A DNA stretch of 64,000 nt from Gemmatirosa kalamazoonensis (lineage in GTDB: Bacteria > Gemmatimonadota > Gemmatimonadetes > Gemmatimonadales > Gemmatimonadaceae). Location: positions 1,286,220 through 1,350,219 of the forward strand of contig NZ_CP007128.1 of the NCBI RefSeq assembly GCF_000522985.1, written 5' to 3'. A program made the position numbers and the translations under genes. The notes beneath the pieces were generated by a model. The model ran no database searches, was not told the origin of the DNA, and saw only the letters and a list, made by a program, of their open reading frames with translations. This document shows, in pieces, positions 47,278 through 62,476 of the stretch; within the stretch, counting starts at the first letter, position 1, and each line of letters begins with the position of its first letter.

Positions 47278-47604
47278 GAGACGGGCGTCTCGCGCGGAGG
47301 CGCGGAGAACGCGGAGAACTGCCCTGGCTGCGTGAGTGAGCCGCAGCGGACGCAGAGGGCCGCAGCGCACACCGATGGGGCGAGGTGGCAGGCGAGTACT
47401 CCGGGGATCCAAGTGCGATTGCAAAGATCTCGAGATCCTCTTCATCGCCGTCGGATCCGCAGTCGTACTCGCCCAGCACCCCGAACCTGTGGTTCGATCG
47501 AAGAGGACGGTCCTCTGCGGCCCTCTGCGTCCGCCGCGGTTCGATTCCGGTACGTCACACGCGGCATTGCCGAGTGCAGCGGTGCTCGTAGGTTGGGATC
47601 ACTC
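47278..47604. repeat. Nested palindromic repeat element 1 in a 327-base intergenic region
   Basis: No gene is seen here. A purine-rich GCGGAG unit run (47290-47318) is followed by outer arms at 47341-47365 and 47515-47539, complementary at 24 of 25 positions (CGGACGCAGAGGGCCGCAG core). Inside are further arms (GGCGAGTAC 47391-47399 with GTACTCGCC 47465-47473; GGATCC pairs) around a 12-base perfect centre GATCTCGAGATC (47426-47437). The rest of the gap to the next start shows nothing. Confidence 0.85.
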
Positions 47605-49079
47605 ATGCCACGGACAGTCCTCTCCTTCACGCGCCGGGCGCGCTTCTCGGTGGGCGCGATCGCGTTCACGATCGCGCACGTCGTGCGCGCGCAGACGGTC
47701 GCCGTGACGGGCACGGTGTACGACAGCGTGAGCGGCGCGCCGCTCGCCGGGGCGCTCGTGCAGCTCGCCGCCGAGCGCGATCCGACGCGCGTGCTCAGCG
47801 CGGAAGCGGACTCGCTCGGACGCTACCGCATCACGGGCGTGAGCCCGGGACGGTATCTCGCGGGGTTCGTGCATCCCGCGCTCGACCTGCTCGGCCTCGA
47901 CCCGTCGATGCACGTCGTGGACATCCCGGCGGACACGGCGCGGCGGCTCGACCTCGCGATTCCCGGCGGCACGCGGCTGCGCGCGGCGATCTGCGGGAGC
48001 ACGGCGCGCGCCGACGACAGCACGGGCGCCATCGTGGGCCAGGTGCGCGACGCGGAGACCGACGCGCCGCTCGACTCGGCGCGCGTCGTCGTGACGTGGC
48101 AGGAGCTCGCGCTCGGCGACGGCGCGCGCGTGCATCTCGAGCGGCGTCGCATCCCCGCCGCCGTGCGGCCCGGCGGCTACTACGCGATCTGCGGGGTGCC
48201 GGCGGACGACCCGATCGTCGGCGGCGCGGAGGCGCCGGGGCGACGCGCAGGGCTGGTGGAGCTGCGCGTACCGGCGGGGCGCGTGCTGCGTCGCGATTTC
48301 CGGCTCGCCGATTCCGCCGCCGCGACGGTCGCCGCGGCGCCTAACGATTCGGCGCCGGATCCGGGCGCCGAGCGGCTGCGCGGGCACGCGACGCTGCGCG
48401 GCGTCGTGCGGCGCCCCGATGGCCGTCCGGCGTCGGGCGCGCGGGTGCTGCTGCTCGGCACCGACCGGCGCGCCGATGCGGGCGACGACGGCCGCTTCGT
48501 GCTCGAAGGGCTGCCGTCGGGGACATTCTCGGTCGAGGCGCGCGCGTTAGGCTTCGACGCGCGGCGCGTGCCGGTGGAGCTGTCGAGCCGACGCGCGAGC
48601 GACGCGGAGATCGTGCTCGGCAGCCGCGTCACGACGCTCGAGACGGTGCGCGTGATGGGCGCGCCCACGCGCTCGTCGCGCGCGCGCGCCTGGCGTTCTT
48701 CGAGCGACAGCGGCGGAGCGCCGCGGGGCACTTCCTGTCCGCGGACGACATGGCGAAGTCGGCCCCGGTGGACGCGACCGACGCGCTGCGTCGCATGCCG
48801 GGTGTGGAGATCCTGCCGCGCCGTTATGGCGCGATCAACGCCATGAGCGGCTCGAAGCGGCTGTTCATCCACGGCGGCATGGGCGGCACGCTGTGCAAGC
48901 CGGACGTCTACATCGACGGGATGCTCGTCATGGACGCCGCCGAGGACCTCGACGCGCTCGTACGCCCGGAGGAGGTGCTCGGCTTCGAGCTGTATCGCAA
49001 CGGCACCGGCGTGCCGGCGGAGTTCACGACGACCCGCGCGAGAGACTGCGGCGTGCTGCTCGTGTGGACGAAGCGCTGA
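47605..49079 (+). pseudogene. Carboxypeptidase-regulatory/TonB-plug exported protein, frameshifted
   Basis: The first part (from 47605) has a signal peptide and two regulatory-like beta domains (AVTGTVYDSVSGAPLAGALV, and ATLRGVVRRPDGRPASGARV with VLLLGTDRRADAGDDG). The frame then breaks in an alternating CG tract near 48680; the continuation in the next frame encodes a TonB-plug-like segment (DATDALRRMPGVEILPRRYG, KPDVYIDGMLVMDAAEDLDA) to the stop at 49079. One added base would give about 490 residues. Such plug-only proteins without a barrel are frequent in Gemmatimonadota. The break may be real, or a sequencing error in a slippage-prone tract. Confidence 0.75.
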
Positions 49080-49786
49080 CGCCCGCGGCACGCCGCGTCC
49101 TCCTGATCCACGGCGCGCTCGGCGCCGCCGAGCAGCTCGCGCCGCTGGCGGAGCGGTTGGAGGCGCGAGGCGCGCGCGTATCGGTCGTGGAGCTCGAAGG
49201 CCACGGGCGCACCGCACCGCGCGACCGGTCATTCGCGATGGCGCACTTCGCGGAGAACGTGATCGACGCGCTCGACGCGCTGGGCACGGGGCCGGGGACG
49301 CTGTTCGGCTACAGCATGGGCGGCTACGTGGCGCTGCTCGTCGCCGCGGCATACCCCGACCGCGTGGCGCGCGTCGTGACGTTAGGCACGAAGTTCCGCT
49401 GGGACGCGGAGACCGCCGCCCGTGAGGCCCGGCGTCTCGACCCCGCGACGATCCGCGCGAAGGTGCCGCGCTTCGCCGGCGCGCTCGCGGCACGACACGC
49501 CGGCGCCGGCGGATGGGAAGCGGTGCTCGCGCGCACCGCGACGCTGCTGACCGCGCTCGGCGACGACGCGCCGCTCACCGACGGCGTGTTGGGCGGGCTG
49601 CGCTGCCCGGTGCGCGTGATGGTGGGCGACCGCGACGCGACGGTGACCGTGGAGGAGACGGCGGGCGCGTGGCGCGCGCTGGTGCACGGCGAGCTCGCGG
49701 TGCTGCCTGCCACGCCGCATCCGATCGAGCAGGTGGACACGGCCCTGCTCGCGGAGCTGGTGCTCGGGGGGCTTGTCGGTATCTAA
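49064..49786 (+). CDS. Alpha/beta hydrolase
   Basis: A 240-residue cytoplasmic alpha/beta hydrolase: VLLIHGALGAAEQLAPLAER (oxyanion region), VVELEGHGRT, nucleophile elbow LFGYSMGGYVALLVAA, the acid in VMVGDRDATV and the His in LPATPHPIEQV. The substrate is unknown. It starts with GTG overlapping the plug gene by 16 bases and ends where a repeat element begins. Confidence 0.85.
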   Translation: MDEALTPAARRVLLIHGALGAAEQLAPLAERLEARGARVSVVELEGHGRTAPRDRSFAMAHFAENVIDALDALGTGPGTLFGYSMGGYVALLVAAAYPDRVARVVTLGTKFRWDAETAAREARRLDPATIRAKVPRFAGALAARHAGAGGWEAVLARTATLLTALGDDAPLTDGVLGGLRCPVRVMVGDRDATVTVEETAGAWRALVHGELAVLPATPHPIEQVDTALLAELVLGGLVGI

Positions 49787-50097
49787 CCGCAGAGGACGCA
49801 GAGGGCCGCGGAGAACATTGATAGGGCGAGGGGATAGACGAGTGCCCTGGGGATCCAAGTGCGATTGAAAAGATCTCGAGATCCTCCTCATCGCCGTTGG
49901 ATCCCCAGAGTACTCGCCTGTCACCTCGAACCTGTCGAAGAGAACGTCAACTGCGATTGACCACAGAAGACACGGAGGACACGGAGGAGAACCATTTCAC
50001 TTGTAGGTTTCCTCCGTGTCCTCCGTGTCCTCTGTGGTTCAAATCAAGAAGGGCAGGAAGAGGCAGTCCTCTGCGGCCCTCCGCGTCCTCTGCGGTT
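49785..50097. repeat. Nested palindromic repeat element 2 with a second hairpin inside
   Basis: Fills the 340-base gap; no gene seen. Outer arms (49785-49809 and 50073-50097) are complementary at 24 of 25 positions. Inside, CTGGGGATCCAA (49847-49858) pairs with TTGGATCCCCAG (49897-49908) around the same GATCTCGAGATC centre (49872-49883). Next, a separate hairpin has 29-base arms (49960-49988 and 50010-50038, 28 matches) of a different unit, GACACGGAG. So one element lies within another. Confidence 0.87.
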
Positions 50098-50137
50098 CAA
50101 AGGTGTTCAAAGGCGTTCAAAGGCGTTCAAAGGCGTT
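50096..50137 (+). repeat. Tandem 10-base repeat (GTTCAAAGGC)
   Basis: Four head-to-tail copies of GTTCAAAGGC (the first with T at the last position) adjoin the right arm of the preceding element and run into the last codons of the YheT-like gene on the minus strand. Confidence 0.85.
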
Positions 50138-51110
50138 CTCCGAGAAACTCGAACGTGCGCCGCTCCGCGTAGTACTCGACGCGCCACGGCGCGCGGCCGC
50201 CGACGAAACCGACGTGGCCACCGTGCGCGGTGAACTCGACGTACAGCGCGGGGTTGTCGGCGGCGGCGGCGCGCACCTCGTCGAGCACCGCGGCGGGGAG
50301 GAACGGATCGTCGGCGGCGCTCAGGAGCAGCGTCGGCACGTGCACACCGGCGAGGAAGCCGAGCGCGCTCGATCGCGCGTAGTAGTCGGCGGCGTCGCGG
50401 AAGCCGTGCACCGGCGCGGTGACGACGTCGTCGAAGTCCCAGATGGAGCGCGCGCGTCGGAGCGTCGCGTCGTCGGCGAGGTCCGGGAAGCGCTCGCGCT
50501 TCGCGACCACCTTGCCGCGCAGCGAGCGGAGGAAGTTGCGCTCGTAGACGCGCGCGAACCCGCGGCCGATGTGCCGGGCGCCGCGCGCGAGGTCGTACGG
50601 CACCGACACCGCGATCGCCGCGAACACCGCGCCGGGCACCTCGGGCCCGCGCTCGCCGAGGTACTTCAGTAGCACGTTGCCGCCGAGGGACACGCCGCAG
50701 ATGCCTAACGGCCGCGCCGGCGTCTCGCGTGCGAGCCGGTCGACGACGAACGCGACGTCCGACGTCTCGCCGGAGTGGTAGAAGCGGCGCGTGCGGTTCA
50801 TCTCGGGCCCGCACGTACGATGGAGCAGGAGGTCCATCGCCCACCCGCGGCGCCGCGCCTCGCCGAAGAGGCCCTGCGCGTAGTGCGAGCGCTCGCCTCC
50901 CTCGAGGCCGTGCAGCAACAGCAGGCGCGGGCGGTCGGGCGCGGCGGCGTCGAGGCGCACGAGGTCCACGAAGTCGCCGTCGGGCGTGTCCCACCGCTCG
51001 AGACGCGTCGGCACCGGGCGCGCACGGCGGACGAACTTCCCCCACATCGTCTGCACGTGGGGGTTGCGGGCCCACCACGGGGCGCGGAACGGGTGCGGGG
51101 CGTGCGCCAT
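50127..51110 (-). CDS. YheT-family (UPF0017) alpha/beta hydrolase
   Basis: A 327-residue cytoplasmic hydrolase: PWWARNPHVQTMWGKF is the conserved YheT N-terminus, LLLLHGLEGGERSHYAQGL the oxyanion region, MDLLLHRTCGPEMNRTRRFY, nucleophile elbow GVSLGGNVLLKYLGE, acid in LLSAADDPFLP and His in FTAHGGHVGFV. Members have been linked to carboxylesterase activity, with poorly defined roles. ATG 51110 is used: a TATACT shared with the divergent gene lies six bases upstream. The C-terminus is encoded within a tandem repeat. Confidence 0.88.
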   Translation of the reverse strand: MAHAPHPFRAPWWARNPHVQTMWGKFVRRARPVPTRLERWDTPDGDFVDLVRLDAAAPDRPRLLLLHGLEGGERSHYAQGLFGEARRRGWAMDLLLHRTCGPEMNRTRRFYHSGETSDVAFVVDRLARETPARPLGICGVSLGGNVLLKYLGERGPEVPGAVFAAIAVSVPYDLARGARHIGRGFARVYERNFLRSLRGKVVAKRERFPDLADDATLRRARSIWDFDDVVTAPVHGFRDAADYYARSSALGFLAGVHVPTLLLSAADDPFLPAAVLDEVRAAAADNPALYVEFTAHGGHVGFVGGRAPWRVEYYAERRTFEFLGERL

Positions 51111-51116
51111 GCCCAC

Positions 51117-51124
51117 AGTATACT
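51117..51124. promoter_or_regulatory. Symmetric -10 box for two divergent leaderless genes
   Basis: AGTATACT is a perfect palindrome that reads TATACT on both strands. It is five bases from the ATG at 51130 and six bases from the ATG at 51110, so transcription in each direction would start at or next to the start codon. Confidence 0.7.
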
Positions 51125-51129
51125 GCGCC

Positions 51130-51471
51130 ATGCCCTCGCCCTCGCTCGGCTCATACCTGCTGATACCGCTCGTAGTGACGCTGGCCGAGACGCTCGTCGT
51201 GCTCGGCGTGCTGCACGGCGCGGTGGGACGCGCGATGCGCGCGCGCGGCGACGCGACCTGGCGGCTGCGCGATACGGCGCTCGTGAGCCCGCTGCTGCTC
51301 GTCGGGCTCTTTCTCTGCTTCGCGTCGCTGAACCACGGGATGCTGCGCTACGCGCTCGACGTGGAGCGCGGGCACGGCGGGGGGACGCATCTCGCCGGCG
51401 CCGTCGTCGTCGCGGCGGTGGGGCTGGTGGCGGCGTGGTTCGGCGCGCGGGCGGTGGGCAAGCTGTACTGA
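51130..51471 (+). CDS. Small integral membrane protein
   Basis: A 113-residue protein with three hydrophobic segments (GSYLLIPLVVTLAETLVVLG, LLLVGLFLCFASL, LAGAVVVAAVGLVAAWFGA). Not recognised. It is divergent from the YheT-like gene with only 19 bases between the two ATG codons. Confidence 0.65.
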   Translation: MPSPSLGSYLLIPLVVTLAETLVVLGVLHGAVGRAMRARGDATWRLRDTALVSPLLLVGLFLCFASLNHGMLRYALDVERGHGGGTHLAGAVVVAAVGLVAAWFGARAVGKLY

Positions 51472-51604
51472 GATGAGCGCCGGCCGGTACGCGGTCTGCG
51501 CACCGCGCGGAACGTGCGCGCGGTCCGCTGGTATCTCTATGCGCATGCGGCGGCCCCCCCCGCGCCATTCACTCGTCTTCGACCGCTCACGTTGCGGAGG
51601 TCGT

Positions 51605-51991
51605 ATGCTGCGTCCATCGCGCTCCCGTCGTCTCGTTCCCGTGCTGGCGCTGTGTGTCGCCGGCGCCTGTGGGCCTCTGCATCGCGGCGGCCCGGAGCCC
51701 GCGTACGTGATCTTCACGAACCAGTCGCTCGACCAGGCCGACGTCTACGCCGTGTCGAGCAGCGGCGCGCAGACGCGCATCGGCACGGTGATGCCGGGGC
51801 GCACGGACACGCTGCACGTGCGGCAGGGCGCGGTGGGGGGCGACAACCAGGCGAACATCGTGGCGCGGATCCTGGCGCGGTCGCGCACGCCGAGCAGCGG
51901 GCTGGTGACGCTCTCGCCGGGGGATCGGGTGCAGGTGACGCTGTCGTCGGACGAGCGGATCCTGTCGGTGCTGCCGGCGCGGGAGCCGTGA
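51605..51991 (+). CDS. Small exported lipoprotein
   Basis: A 128-residue lipoprotein: signal VPVLALCVAGACGPL with lipobox, then a single small beta domain (YVIFTNQSLDQADVYAVSSS, GTVMPGRTDTLHV, RVQVTLSSDERILSV). GGAGG lies four bases before the ATG at 51605. Family unknown. Two GTTAGGC copies in opposite orientation follow its stop. Confidence 0.7.
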   Translation: MLRPSRSRRLVPVLALCVAGACGPLHRGGPEPAYVIFTNQSLDQADVYAVSSSGAQTRIGTVMPGRTDTLHVRQGAVGGDNQANIVARILARSRTPSSGLVTLSPGDRVQVTLSSDERILSVLPAREP

Positions 51992-52076
51992 GCGGGGAGG
52001 TGCCTAACGCGATCGCGATGCGTTAGGCACCCGGCAGGAGGCCGACCGGTGCGGCTCGTCACGGGCGCCCTTGCGG

Positions 52077-52094
52077 GTTGAACGATCGTTCAAC
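52077..52094. promoter_or_regulatory. 18-base perfect palindromic operator
   Basis: GTTGAACGATCGTTCAAC is a perfect palindrome ending 11 bases before the TetR start codon, as expected of an autoregulatory TetR site. Confidence 0.85.
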
Positions 52095-52105
52095 ACCTTG
52101 GCGCC

Positions 52106-52690
52106 GTGCCCGACACGCGCGACCGCATCCTCGCCGCCGCCAGAGTCCTTTTCGCCACAAAGGGCTTTGGCTCGACGAGCGTCGCCGACATCCTCCACTC
52201 GGCCGACGTCAACGCGGGGAGCCTGTACCACTTCTTCCCCGGCAAGCAGGACGTCCTCCTCGCCGTGCTCGACGCCTACCACGCCGGCATCGGGCCGATG
52301 CTGCTGGACCCGGCGTGGACCGGCGTCGACGACCCGATCGACCGCGTCTTCGCGCTCCTCGCGCGCTACCGCGGCGCGCTCGTCGCCACCGACTGCAGCT
52401 ACGGCTGCCCGATCGGGAGCCTCGCGCTCGAGATCCACGAGCCCGACCCGCCGGTGCGCGAGCGGCTCGCGGCGAACTTCGACGCGTGGGTCGCGGCCGT
52501 CGAGCGGTGCTTCGTCGACGCCGGCGATCGGCTTCCCGCGGACGTCGACCGCCGCGCGCTCGCCGTCTTCGCGCTCACGACCATGGAAGGCGGGGTGATG
52601 CTCGCCCGCACACACCGCTCGGCGGCGCCGTTCGACGACGCGGTCCGCATGCTCCGCGACCACGTCGCACGACTCGAAGCCGCGGTCTGA
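52106..52690 (+). CDS. TetR-family transcriptional repressor
   Basis: A 194-residue regulator. The N-terminal helix-turn-helix is clear: RILAAARVLFATKGFGSTSV, DILHSADVNAGSLYHFFPGK. The C-terminal ligand domain contains DCSYGCPIGSLALEI, a TetR_C feature of the AcrR/YcdC-type branch, with two Cys residues that may sense an electrophile. It starts with GTG. The operator overlaps its promoter and it probably also controls the next membrane gene. Confidence 0.92.
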   Translation: MPDTRDRILAAARVLFATKGFGSTSVADILHSADVNAGSLYHFFPGKQDVLLAVLDAYHAGIGPMLLDPAWTGVDDPIDRVFALLARYRGALVATDCSYGCPIGSLALEIHEPDPPVRERLAANFDAWVAAVERCFVDAGDRLPADVDRRALAVFALTTMEGGVMLARTHRSAAPFDDAVRMLRDHVARLEAAV

Positions 52691-52727
52691 TCCCCTCCCG
52701 CTGCTCCTCCCTCCAGCCCCCACCGCC

Positions 52728-53090
52728 ATGAACACGCGCGCCCTCGCCATCGCCTCCACGGTCGGCACCGTCCTGCAGGTCGCCATGGTCGTCGCCGGAC
52801 ACTCGAGCCCCGCGGTCAAGGCGCTGTTCGCGGTCGGCGGGATGGGCCTCTCGCTCGTCGCCGGCGTGCTGTACGCGCGGCTCGCGCCGGGGGCCACACG
52901 CGGCGACGCGGCGGTCGGTGGACTGCTCGCCGGGGCGATCTGCGCGTTCCTCGGCATCCTCGTCTCGCACCTGCTCGGCGACGTGCCGACGTCGCTGCTC
53001 GCGCTCGGCACCGTGAGCTCCGCGGTCACCGGCGCGATCGGTGGACTCCTCGGCATGCTCGGGCGGCCGAAGCTCGCGACGGCGCGCTGA
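52728..53090 (+). CDS. Small four-helix membrane protein
   Basis: A 120-residue membrane protein with four hydrophobic segments (ALAIASTVGTVLQVAMVVAG, ALFAVGGMGLSLVAGVLYA, GGLLAGAICAFLGILVSHLL, VSSAVTGAIGGLLGML). Its start is 37 bases after the TetR stop, so it is probably in the repressor's operon. It may be an efflux or membrane-stress protein, but no family is recognised. Confidence 0.68.
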   Translation: MNTRALAIASTVGTVLQVAMVVAGHSSPAVKALFAVGGMGLSLVAGVLYARLAPGATRGDAAVGGLLAGAICAFLGILVSHLLGDVPTSLLALGTVSSAVTGAIGGLLGMLGRPKLATAR

Positions 53091-53097
53091 ACGGCCT

Positions 53098-53291
53098 CTC
53101 ACGGGAGGCGCGGAGAACGCGGAGTGGCGCCTCCGCTGTGTGAATGAACCGCAGAGGACGCAGAGGGCCGCAGAGAACACCAACAGCAAATACCTGGGGA
53201 TGAAAGGATCCCAGGATCCATCAGGATCCTTTCATCCCCAGATCTTTTGCTGTTCGAAGAGGCAGTCCTCTGTGGCCCTCTGCGGTTCGAT
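53098..53291. repeat. Nested palindromic repeat element 3
   Basis: Together with the bases to 53362 this fills a 272-base gap in which no gene is seen. A GCGGAG unit hairpin (53104-53133) is followed by outer arms (AACCGCAGAGG at 53147 onward; CCTCTGCGGTT up to 53287), the right arm one 9-base unit shorter. Inside, AACAGCAAA (53182-53190) pairs with TTTGCTGTT (53246-53254), then an 18-base perfect stem CTGGGGATGAAAGGATCC (53194-53211) pairs with 53224-53241. Confidence 0.87.
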
Positions 53292-62399: not shown

Positions 62400-62476
62400 C
62401 CTCTGCGTCCTCTGCGTCCTCTGCGGTCGATGCCGTTCACGAGCATGAACCGCAGAGGACGCAGAGGACGCAGAGG
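62400..62476. repeat. Perfect 28-base inverted repeat (CCTCTGCGT units)
   Basis: Arms at 62400-62427 and 62449-62476 are exact reverse complements, each three tandem copies of a 9-base unit (CCTCTGCGT), with a 21-base loop. It is 24 bases before the next start and could stall ribosomes or polymerase. Confidence 0.9.

Follow-up and report, generated by a model that had tools for sequence, protein, structure and literature searches.

Nested palindromic repeats of Gemmatirosa kalamazoonensis share their arms with genes of GxxExxY, a predicted Cas4-like nuclease and the likely engine of their spread

The genome of Gemmatirosa kalamazoonensis (7.48 Mb, in contigs of 5.31, 1.106, and 1.04 Mb) encompasses a large family of hairpin repeats, of which three nested examples lie in the 64,000-nucleotide stretch of DNA analyzed here as a whole (hereafter, the window; C2:1286220-1350219). 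The conserved arms of these hairpins also flank the gene for the protein GxxExxY in many bacteria and some archaea, so that GxxExxY is likely to be the engine that spreads the elements; a preliminary description of the window missed this connection of the arms with a nuclease gene. From this observed association we infer cleavage and transposition, and consider it reasonably probable that the elements are non-autonomous palindromic elements mobilized by GxxExxY and similar to REPINs, that is, repetitive extragenic palindromic (REP) doublets forming hairpins.

The three elements, at 47281-47546 (element 1), 49785-50097 (element 2), and 53098-53291 (element 3), are all intergenic and are, as the preliminary description held, nested palindromes with shared outer arms and with inverted folding far beyond that of dinucleotide shuffles (z of -4.2, -16.4, and -9.5, respectively). 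Elements 1 and 2 have the same GATC-rich core (type A), again in agreement with that description, and element 3 combines the outer arms of the other two with a different core, the 18-bp stem of which is indeed perfect in the window copy. Some details called for revision. Each element had been credited with one inner palindrome, but the outer arms of element 2 (AACCGCAGAGGACGCAGAGGGCCGC) enclose two, and core 3, described as unrelated to the others, shares the base TGGGGAT...ATCCCCA with core A and is itself a repeat family. Upstream of the CCGCAGAGG arm, elements 1 and 3 additionally have a partial arm from a third family (GGAGGCGCGGAGAACGCGGAG; CGCGGAGGCGCGGAG). The window elements are composite, built from repeat families that propagate as units, and consist of the following parts:

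47296..47316, plus strand: one-sided arm of the CGCGGAG family (GGAGGCGCGGAGAACGCGGAG), its theme common with the hairpins around the GxxExxY gene at C2:1535069-1535301
47341..47358, plus strand: left outer arm of element 1, CCGCAGCGGACGCAGAGG
47394..47470, no strand: GATC-rich palindromic core of element 1, type A; homologous hairpins surround the GxxExxY gene at C2:5013050-5013382
47522..47539, minus strand: right outer arm of element 1
49785..49816, plus strand: left outer arm of element 2, AACCGCAGAGGACGCAGAGGGCCGCGGAGAAC
49840..49915, no strand: type A core palindrome of element 2, GATC-rich
49960..50038, no strand: second inner hairpin of element 2, CCACAGAGGACACGGAGG subfamily, 97% complementary
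50066..50097, minus strand: right outer arm of element 2
53104..53137, no strand: CGCGGAG-family arm and short GGAGGCGC/GCGCCTCC palindrome, upstream of element 3
53149..53166, plus strand: left outer arm of element 3, CCGCAGAGGACGCAGAGG
53183..53255, no strand: core of element 3, an 8-bp ACAGCAAA/TTTGCTGT helix and the 18-bp CTGGGGATGAAAGGATCC stem, present at about 24 places in the genome
53267..53288, minus strand: right outer arm of element 3, CCTCTGTGGCCCTCTGCGGTTC
62400..62466, no strand: further arm pair of the same family in outward order, right-type first and then left-type (C2:1348619-1348763)

The repeats extend across the genome. The outer-arm motif CCGCAGAGGACGCAGAGG, with up to 2 mismatches allowed, matches 423 times, compared to 4 matches for the reversed control, and in the 1.6 Mb sampled, most copies either form a hairpin about 75 bp long or serve as arms to other palindromes. 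Such a hairpin follows the plan TTGAACC-RCAGAG-GAC-RCAGAG-GAC-RCRGAGG-loop-and back, and the arms are symmetric by strand in the sampled stretches. The ends of the elements (TTGAACC...GGTTCAA) are sharp amid unrelated flanks, the consensus stopping about six bases outside the arms, and at 50 elements, direct repeats indicative of target duplication did not exceed chance. Element 2 aligns with other places in the genome over most of its length at 82–89% identity, and core 3 recurs at about 24 distinct places with 80–100% identity. Outer arms enclose 13 of 20 hairpins of the CCA type vs 28 of 20000 random positions, and therefore, nesting is the rule for this subfamily, whether it arose through targeted insertion, through propagation of composites, or both. 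Insertion exactly at the loops of host hairpins was considered and rejected, given that stem-continuing flanks were not in overall excess beyond non-nested hairpins, an excess being limited to nested copies.

GxxExxY proteins often adjoin such repeats, a lead that was borne out in this genome. One GxxExxY gene (C3:993804-994150) sits between two CCGCAGAGG hairpins, another (C2:1535069-1535301) between two CGCGGAG hairpins, and a third (C2:5013050-5013382) between two GATC-rich hairpins that resemble the type A core; two more paralogues bear other hairpin families. Each of the first two genes matches the protein family in two frames and so looks broken. The palindrome families differ between paralogues, with type A palindromes around L144 and CAGAGG hairpins around L145/L147. 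When one flank of each gene was locally aligned with the inverted other flank, the score was at least 28 in the PF13366 (GxxExxY) and PF05635 regions scored, with the exception of L142, L146, and L157, compared to a median of 11, a 99th percentile of 16, and a maximum of 29 among 2000 random windows. Gene-bearing copies are few, two of them decayed, and most copies are gene-less. The transposase of REPINs, the Y1 enzyme RAYT (REP-associated tyrosine transposase), was ruled out as the mobilizer because it is absent: PF01797 has no match in the whole genome, and the controls in 5 known genomes were positive.

Arms and gene are associated far beyond this genome. We gathered 80 GxxExxY loci by protein pattern alone and scored the 73 with enough flanking sequence. 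A CRCRGAG..CRCRGAG arm lies to the left of the gene in 55 of the 73 loci, its reverse complement to the right in 53, and the inverted pair is complete in 44; at 8 of the 73 loci, both sides carry the opposite orientation, and any such motif is present in 11 of 506 remote 250-bp blocks. The hosts belong to Acidobacteriota, Pseudomonadota, Chloroflexota, Planctomycetota, and Bacteroidota, together with two methane-cycle archaea. A stricter arm pattern was found in 24 of 25 genomes searched among those behind these loci, in up to 235 copies, the maximum being in the betaproteobacterium behind L247; controls gave 0–4 matches in 24 genomes and 10 in one. Within Gemmatimonadota, all 11 genomes with at least 5 arm matches contain PF13366, vs 37 of 121 overall (Fisher p = 6.7e-7, or 2.2e-6 minus this genome, both uncorrected for phylogeny). 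Flank scores of at least 18 were obtained at 32 of 52 gene loci from other Gemmatimonadota, the 99th percentile for mismatched flank pairs being 15. Among the members of a sister genus, g2, the arm count ranges widely (108, 50, 0, and 0). In the GxxExxY gene tree, phyla are intermixed and most forks are unresolved, so that the tree suggests, rather than demonstrates, transfer. GxxExxY had no match in phage records and 6 matches in plasmid records.

The linked protein is TIGR04256/PF13366: all 8 members of the set A1 match above the curated cut-off, which the GxxExxY genes of this genome exceed as well. The putative catalytic motif is intact, with E21, D61, E71xK73, and Q85 invariant and Y89 at least 90% conserved among 28 sequences, a set that corresponds to the active-site pattern of RecB and Cas4. 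The predicted structure (predicted local distance difference test score, pLDDT, of 95.8) is most similar to Cas4 SSO0001 (Z 10.1); the Holliday-junction resolvase Hjc scored Z 7.0, inside the range of common arrangements, and a sequence search of the PDB with GxxExxY gave no match. GxxExxY is thus predicted to be a small (120-residue) Cas4/RecB-like nuclease of the PD-(D/E)XK fold, and a hairpin or cruciform substrate would suit a nuclease active on branched DNA or DNA ends. In the accessible part of the literature (open-licence PMC papers), we found no description of GxxExxY linked to repeats.

The preliminary description further proposed that the elements keep pairing while their sequence changes, as compensatory changes among copies would attest. 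Within this genome, such changes are not the rule. No pair is changed on both sides among 11 copies of core 3, and core A, about 80% self-paired, shows one compensatory cell among 14 copies; the cores are alike by descent, with compensatory change almost nil. Strong covariation is seen at columns 2, 11, and 20 of 30 arm pairs; most of it reflects the division into two subfamilies, and the excess within them is weak (p = 0.003). At columns 4, 13, and 22, within-subfamily covariation is no better than in shuffles (p = 0.54). The proposal does hold in the sister genus (G004 and G071), in which the CACAGAG arms are conserved and the cores between them have the form GGGG-stem-loop-stem-CCCC. Taken without selection for pairing, the stems of these cores differ strongly between copies and still pair (paired fraction of positions 0.744 vs 0.415 shuffled, 0/5000), so pairing persists through sequence change on a longer time scale. 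Cores A and 3 of the window, for their part, share a GGGGAT...ATCCCC base. The original statement is thus right for the wider family. The sister-genus elements (L305-L334 in G004; C1:121732, 358676, 416714, 423039, and 791018 in G071) have near-identical outer arms and a GC-rich core, sometimes with a second arm layer (AACGCAGAGGCGCAGAG), and some of the cores are terminator-like.

Pairing under change is predicted alike by structural selection and by template-switch correction of quasipalindromes, and either may be its cause. Correction of imperfect palindromes by template switching is known in bacteria and, as a purely mutational process, would yield covarying cores like those of the sister genus with no function needed. 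Many stem differences stand uncorrected here, however, including arm columns 4, 13, and 22 and the unpaired portion of core A, and such correction accounts for pairing but neither for dispersal nor for the linkage to GxxExxY. We consider a purely mutational origin of the pairing unlikely. Structural selection at the ends of genes would make the hairpins bidirectional terminators, mRNA stabilizers, or supercoiling sites, as proposed for REPs, with GxxExxY merely adjacent. The intergenic position of the window elements fits this explanation, as do the covarying stems of the sister genus and the terminator-like form of some of its cores (a T run after a GC stem), but it leaves unexplained the inverted arms of a single theme around GxxExxY across phyla and their absence from remote blocks, the range from 0 to 108 copies within one genus, and the repetition of composites at more than 80% identity, and compensatory change is absent from the core 3 copies of this genome. 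We regard gene-end selection as quite improbable.

The elements could also be ordinary miniature inverted-repeat transposable elements (MITEs) or REPs that are moved by an unrelated transposase, GxxExxY being a passenger caught between the arms. They are indeed similar to bacterial MITEs in that short, gene-less copies with inverted ends are dispersed and related to a gene-bearing form. Their ends also occur on the GxxExxY-bearing elements, GxxExxY not being a proven transposase. The scarcity of gene-bearing copies and the decay of two of them suit a passenger. Unlike MITEs, the elements are near-complete palindromes, lack detectable target-site duplication at the 50 elements inspected, and are not linked to a known transposase; Y1/RAYT is absent from the genome (the transposase search covered PF01797), and the arm theme and GxxExxY occur together from Bacteroidota to archaea. 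With this evidence, the passenger explanation appears to us distinctly improbable. Least convincing, and highly improbable in our judgment, is action at the level of RNA, as with the intervening sequences (IVSs) of 23S rRNA, by which a transcribed stem would be cut by RNase III and the encoded protein would be incidental. The IVSs, which replace hairpin loops in rRNA and encode an S23, four-helix-bundle protein (PMC4990558), do share the plan of a long stem with a gene in its loop, a sporadic distribution, and the status of presumed selfish elements. Their protein, however, is PF05635 rather than PF13366, they reside in rRNA, and they are not known as high-copy gene-less repeats; the window elements have no rRNA match and lie between protein-coding frames, and RNA processing by itself does not copy DNA. 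Genes of the IVS-type family PF05635 in this genome also sit between inverted repeats, which we count in favor of this explanation. These repeats consist of 7–15-bp tandem units (GGGACTC, GAGCGTGG, GCGTGGCT), each gene having its own unit, as is the case in other Gemmatimonadota (L188-L215); the loci here (L150-L158) are at C2:598039, C2:1826338, C2:2342635, C2:4973452, C2:2406496, C2:338942, and C3:1007607. The units presumably resemble the short tandemly repeated repetitive (STRR) heptamers of cyanobacteria.

Mobilization by GxxExxY accords with the mobility that the preliminary description suggested, namely, hundreds of dispersed, sharp-ended copies in unrelated flanks and arm counts of 0–108 within one sister genus; the hairpin intermediate suggested along with it would be part of the following scenario. 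The three window elements would be gene-less nested copies, and the gene-bearing form would consist of inverted CRCRGAG-type arms, or arm hairpins, around the GxxExxY gene. GxxExxY would act on arms of its own class when these are folded into a hairpin or cruciform, recognizing them and cutting at them, after which host replication or repair would copy the hairpin elsewhere without target duplication. Gene-less copies would depend on the enzyme in trans, in the way proposed for REPINs and RAYTs. Nesting may result when an element inserts into a palindrome already present, or around it, and the composite then spreads.

Several observations weigh against this scenario. Cas4-like nucleases are not known to act as transposases, and the true mobilizer could be a third gene. 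Some genomes have a GxxExxY gene but zero arm matches, and inverted arms were undetectable at the GxxExxY genes L142, L146, L162, L164, and L165. The CAGAGG-flanked L145/L147, which is split between two frames, looks broken, and L148/L149 does too, so that activity in trans would need another paralogue or be a thing of the past. The comparison of empty sites between G004 and G071 yielded one syntenic locus with elements in both genomes, and movement was not observed.

Among known systems, REPIN/RAYT (PMC3116915, PMC3733652) is close in its workings: hundreds of short intergenic inverted-repeat hairpins, mostly non-autonomous, with a nuclease or transposase gene flanked by its own hairpin class, and a separate class for each of the several such genes per genome. 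Here too, inverted hairpins in high copy number are found on either side of the gene presumed to mobilize them, with GxxExxY in the place of RAYT. The elements work like REPIN/RAYT but are not members of that system, since the search for its defining enzyme, a Y1 transposase, found none; the linked protein is a PD-(D/E)XK nuclease. The arms also differ, being built from 8–9-bp tandem units (GACRCAGAG) on a theme common across phyla, frequently in two or three nested layers. In form only, conserved and internally repetitive inverted arms around variable interiors are reminiscent of eukaryotic foldback elements, which differ in hosts, sizes, and enzymes.

Some further features of the window elements deserve mention. 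An Rfam search gave no match at the gathering score, only sub-threshold microRNA matches caused by the long stems. Just outside element 2, a short tandem array of TTCAAAGGCG units (50097-50137) lies beside the GGTTCAA end. Each of the three elements contains exactly four RGATCY sites, vs 1.13 per kb in the sampled genome. RGATCY is an N6-methyladenine (m6A) methylation motif in strain KBS708 (PMC3974934), and methylation might have a bearing on the elements.

With these results, the CACAGAG-type repeats, present in genomes of many phyla, gain a candidate engine, and GxxExxY, a family without an assigned function, gains a candidate substrate. The sister-genus cores provide a natural set for distinguishing selection from template-switch repair as the cause of pairing. 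More tentatively, and short of what we would call probable, palindromic mobile elements widespread in many bacterial phyla and some archaea may be moved by the Cas4-like PD-(D/E)XK nuclease GxxExxY via their folded arms, in a hairpin-copying system independent of the HUH, DDE, serine, and tyrosine transposases, with nesting arising from the use of palindromes as targets. Should movement be confirmed, the enzymes responsible for spreading DNA within genomes would come to include a nuclease fold with no known part in transposition.

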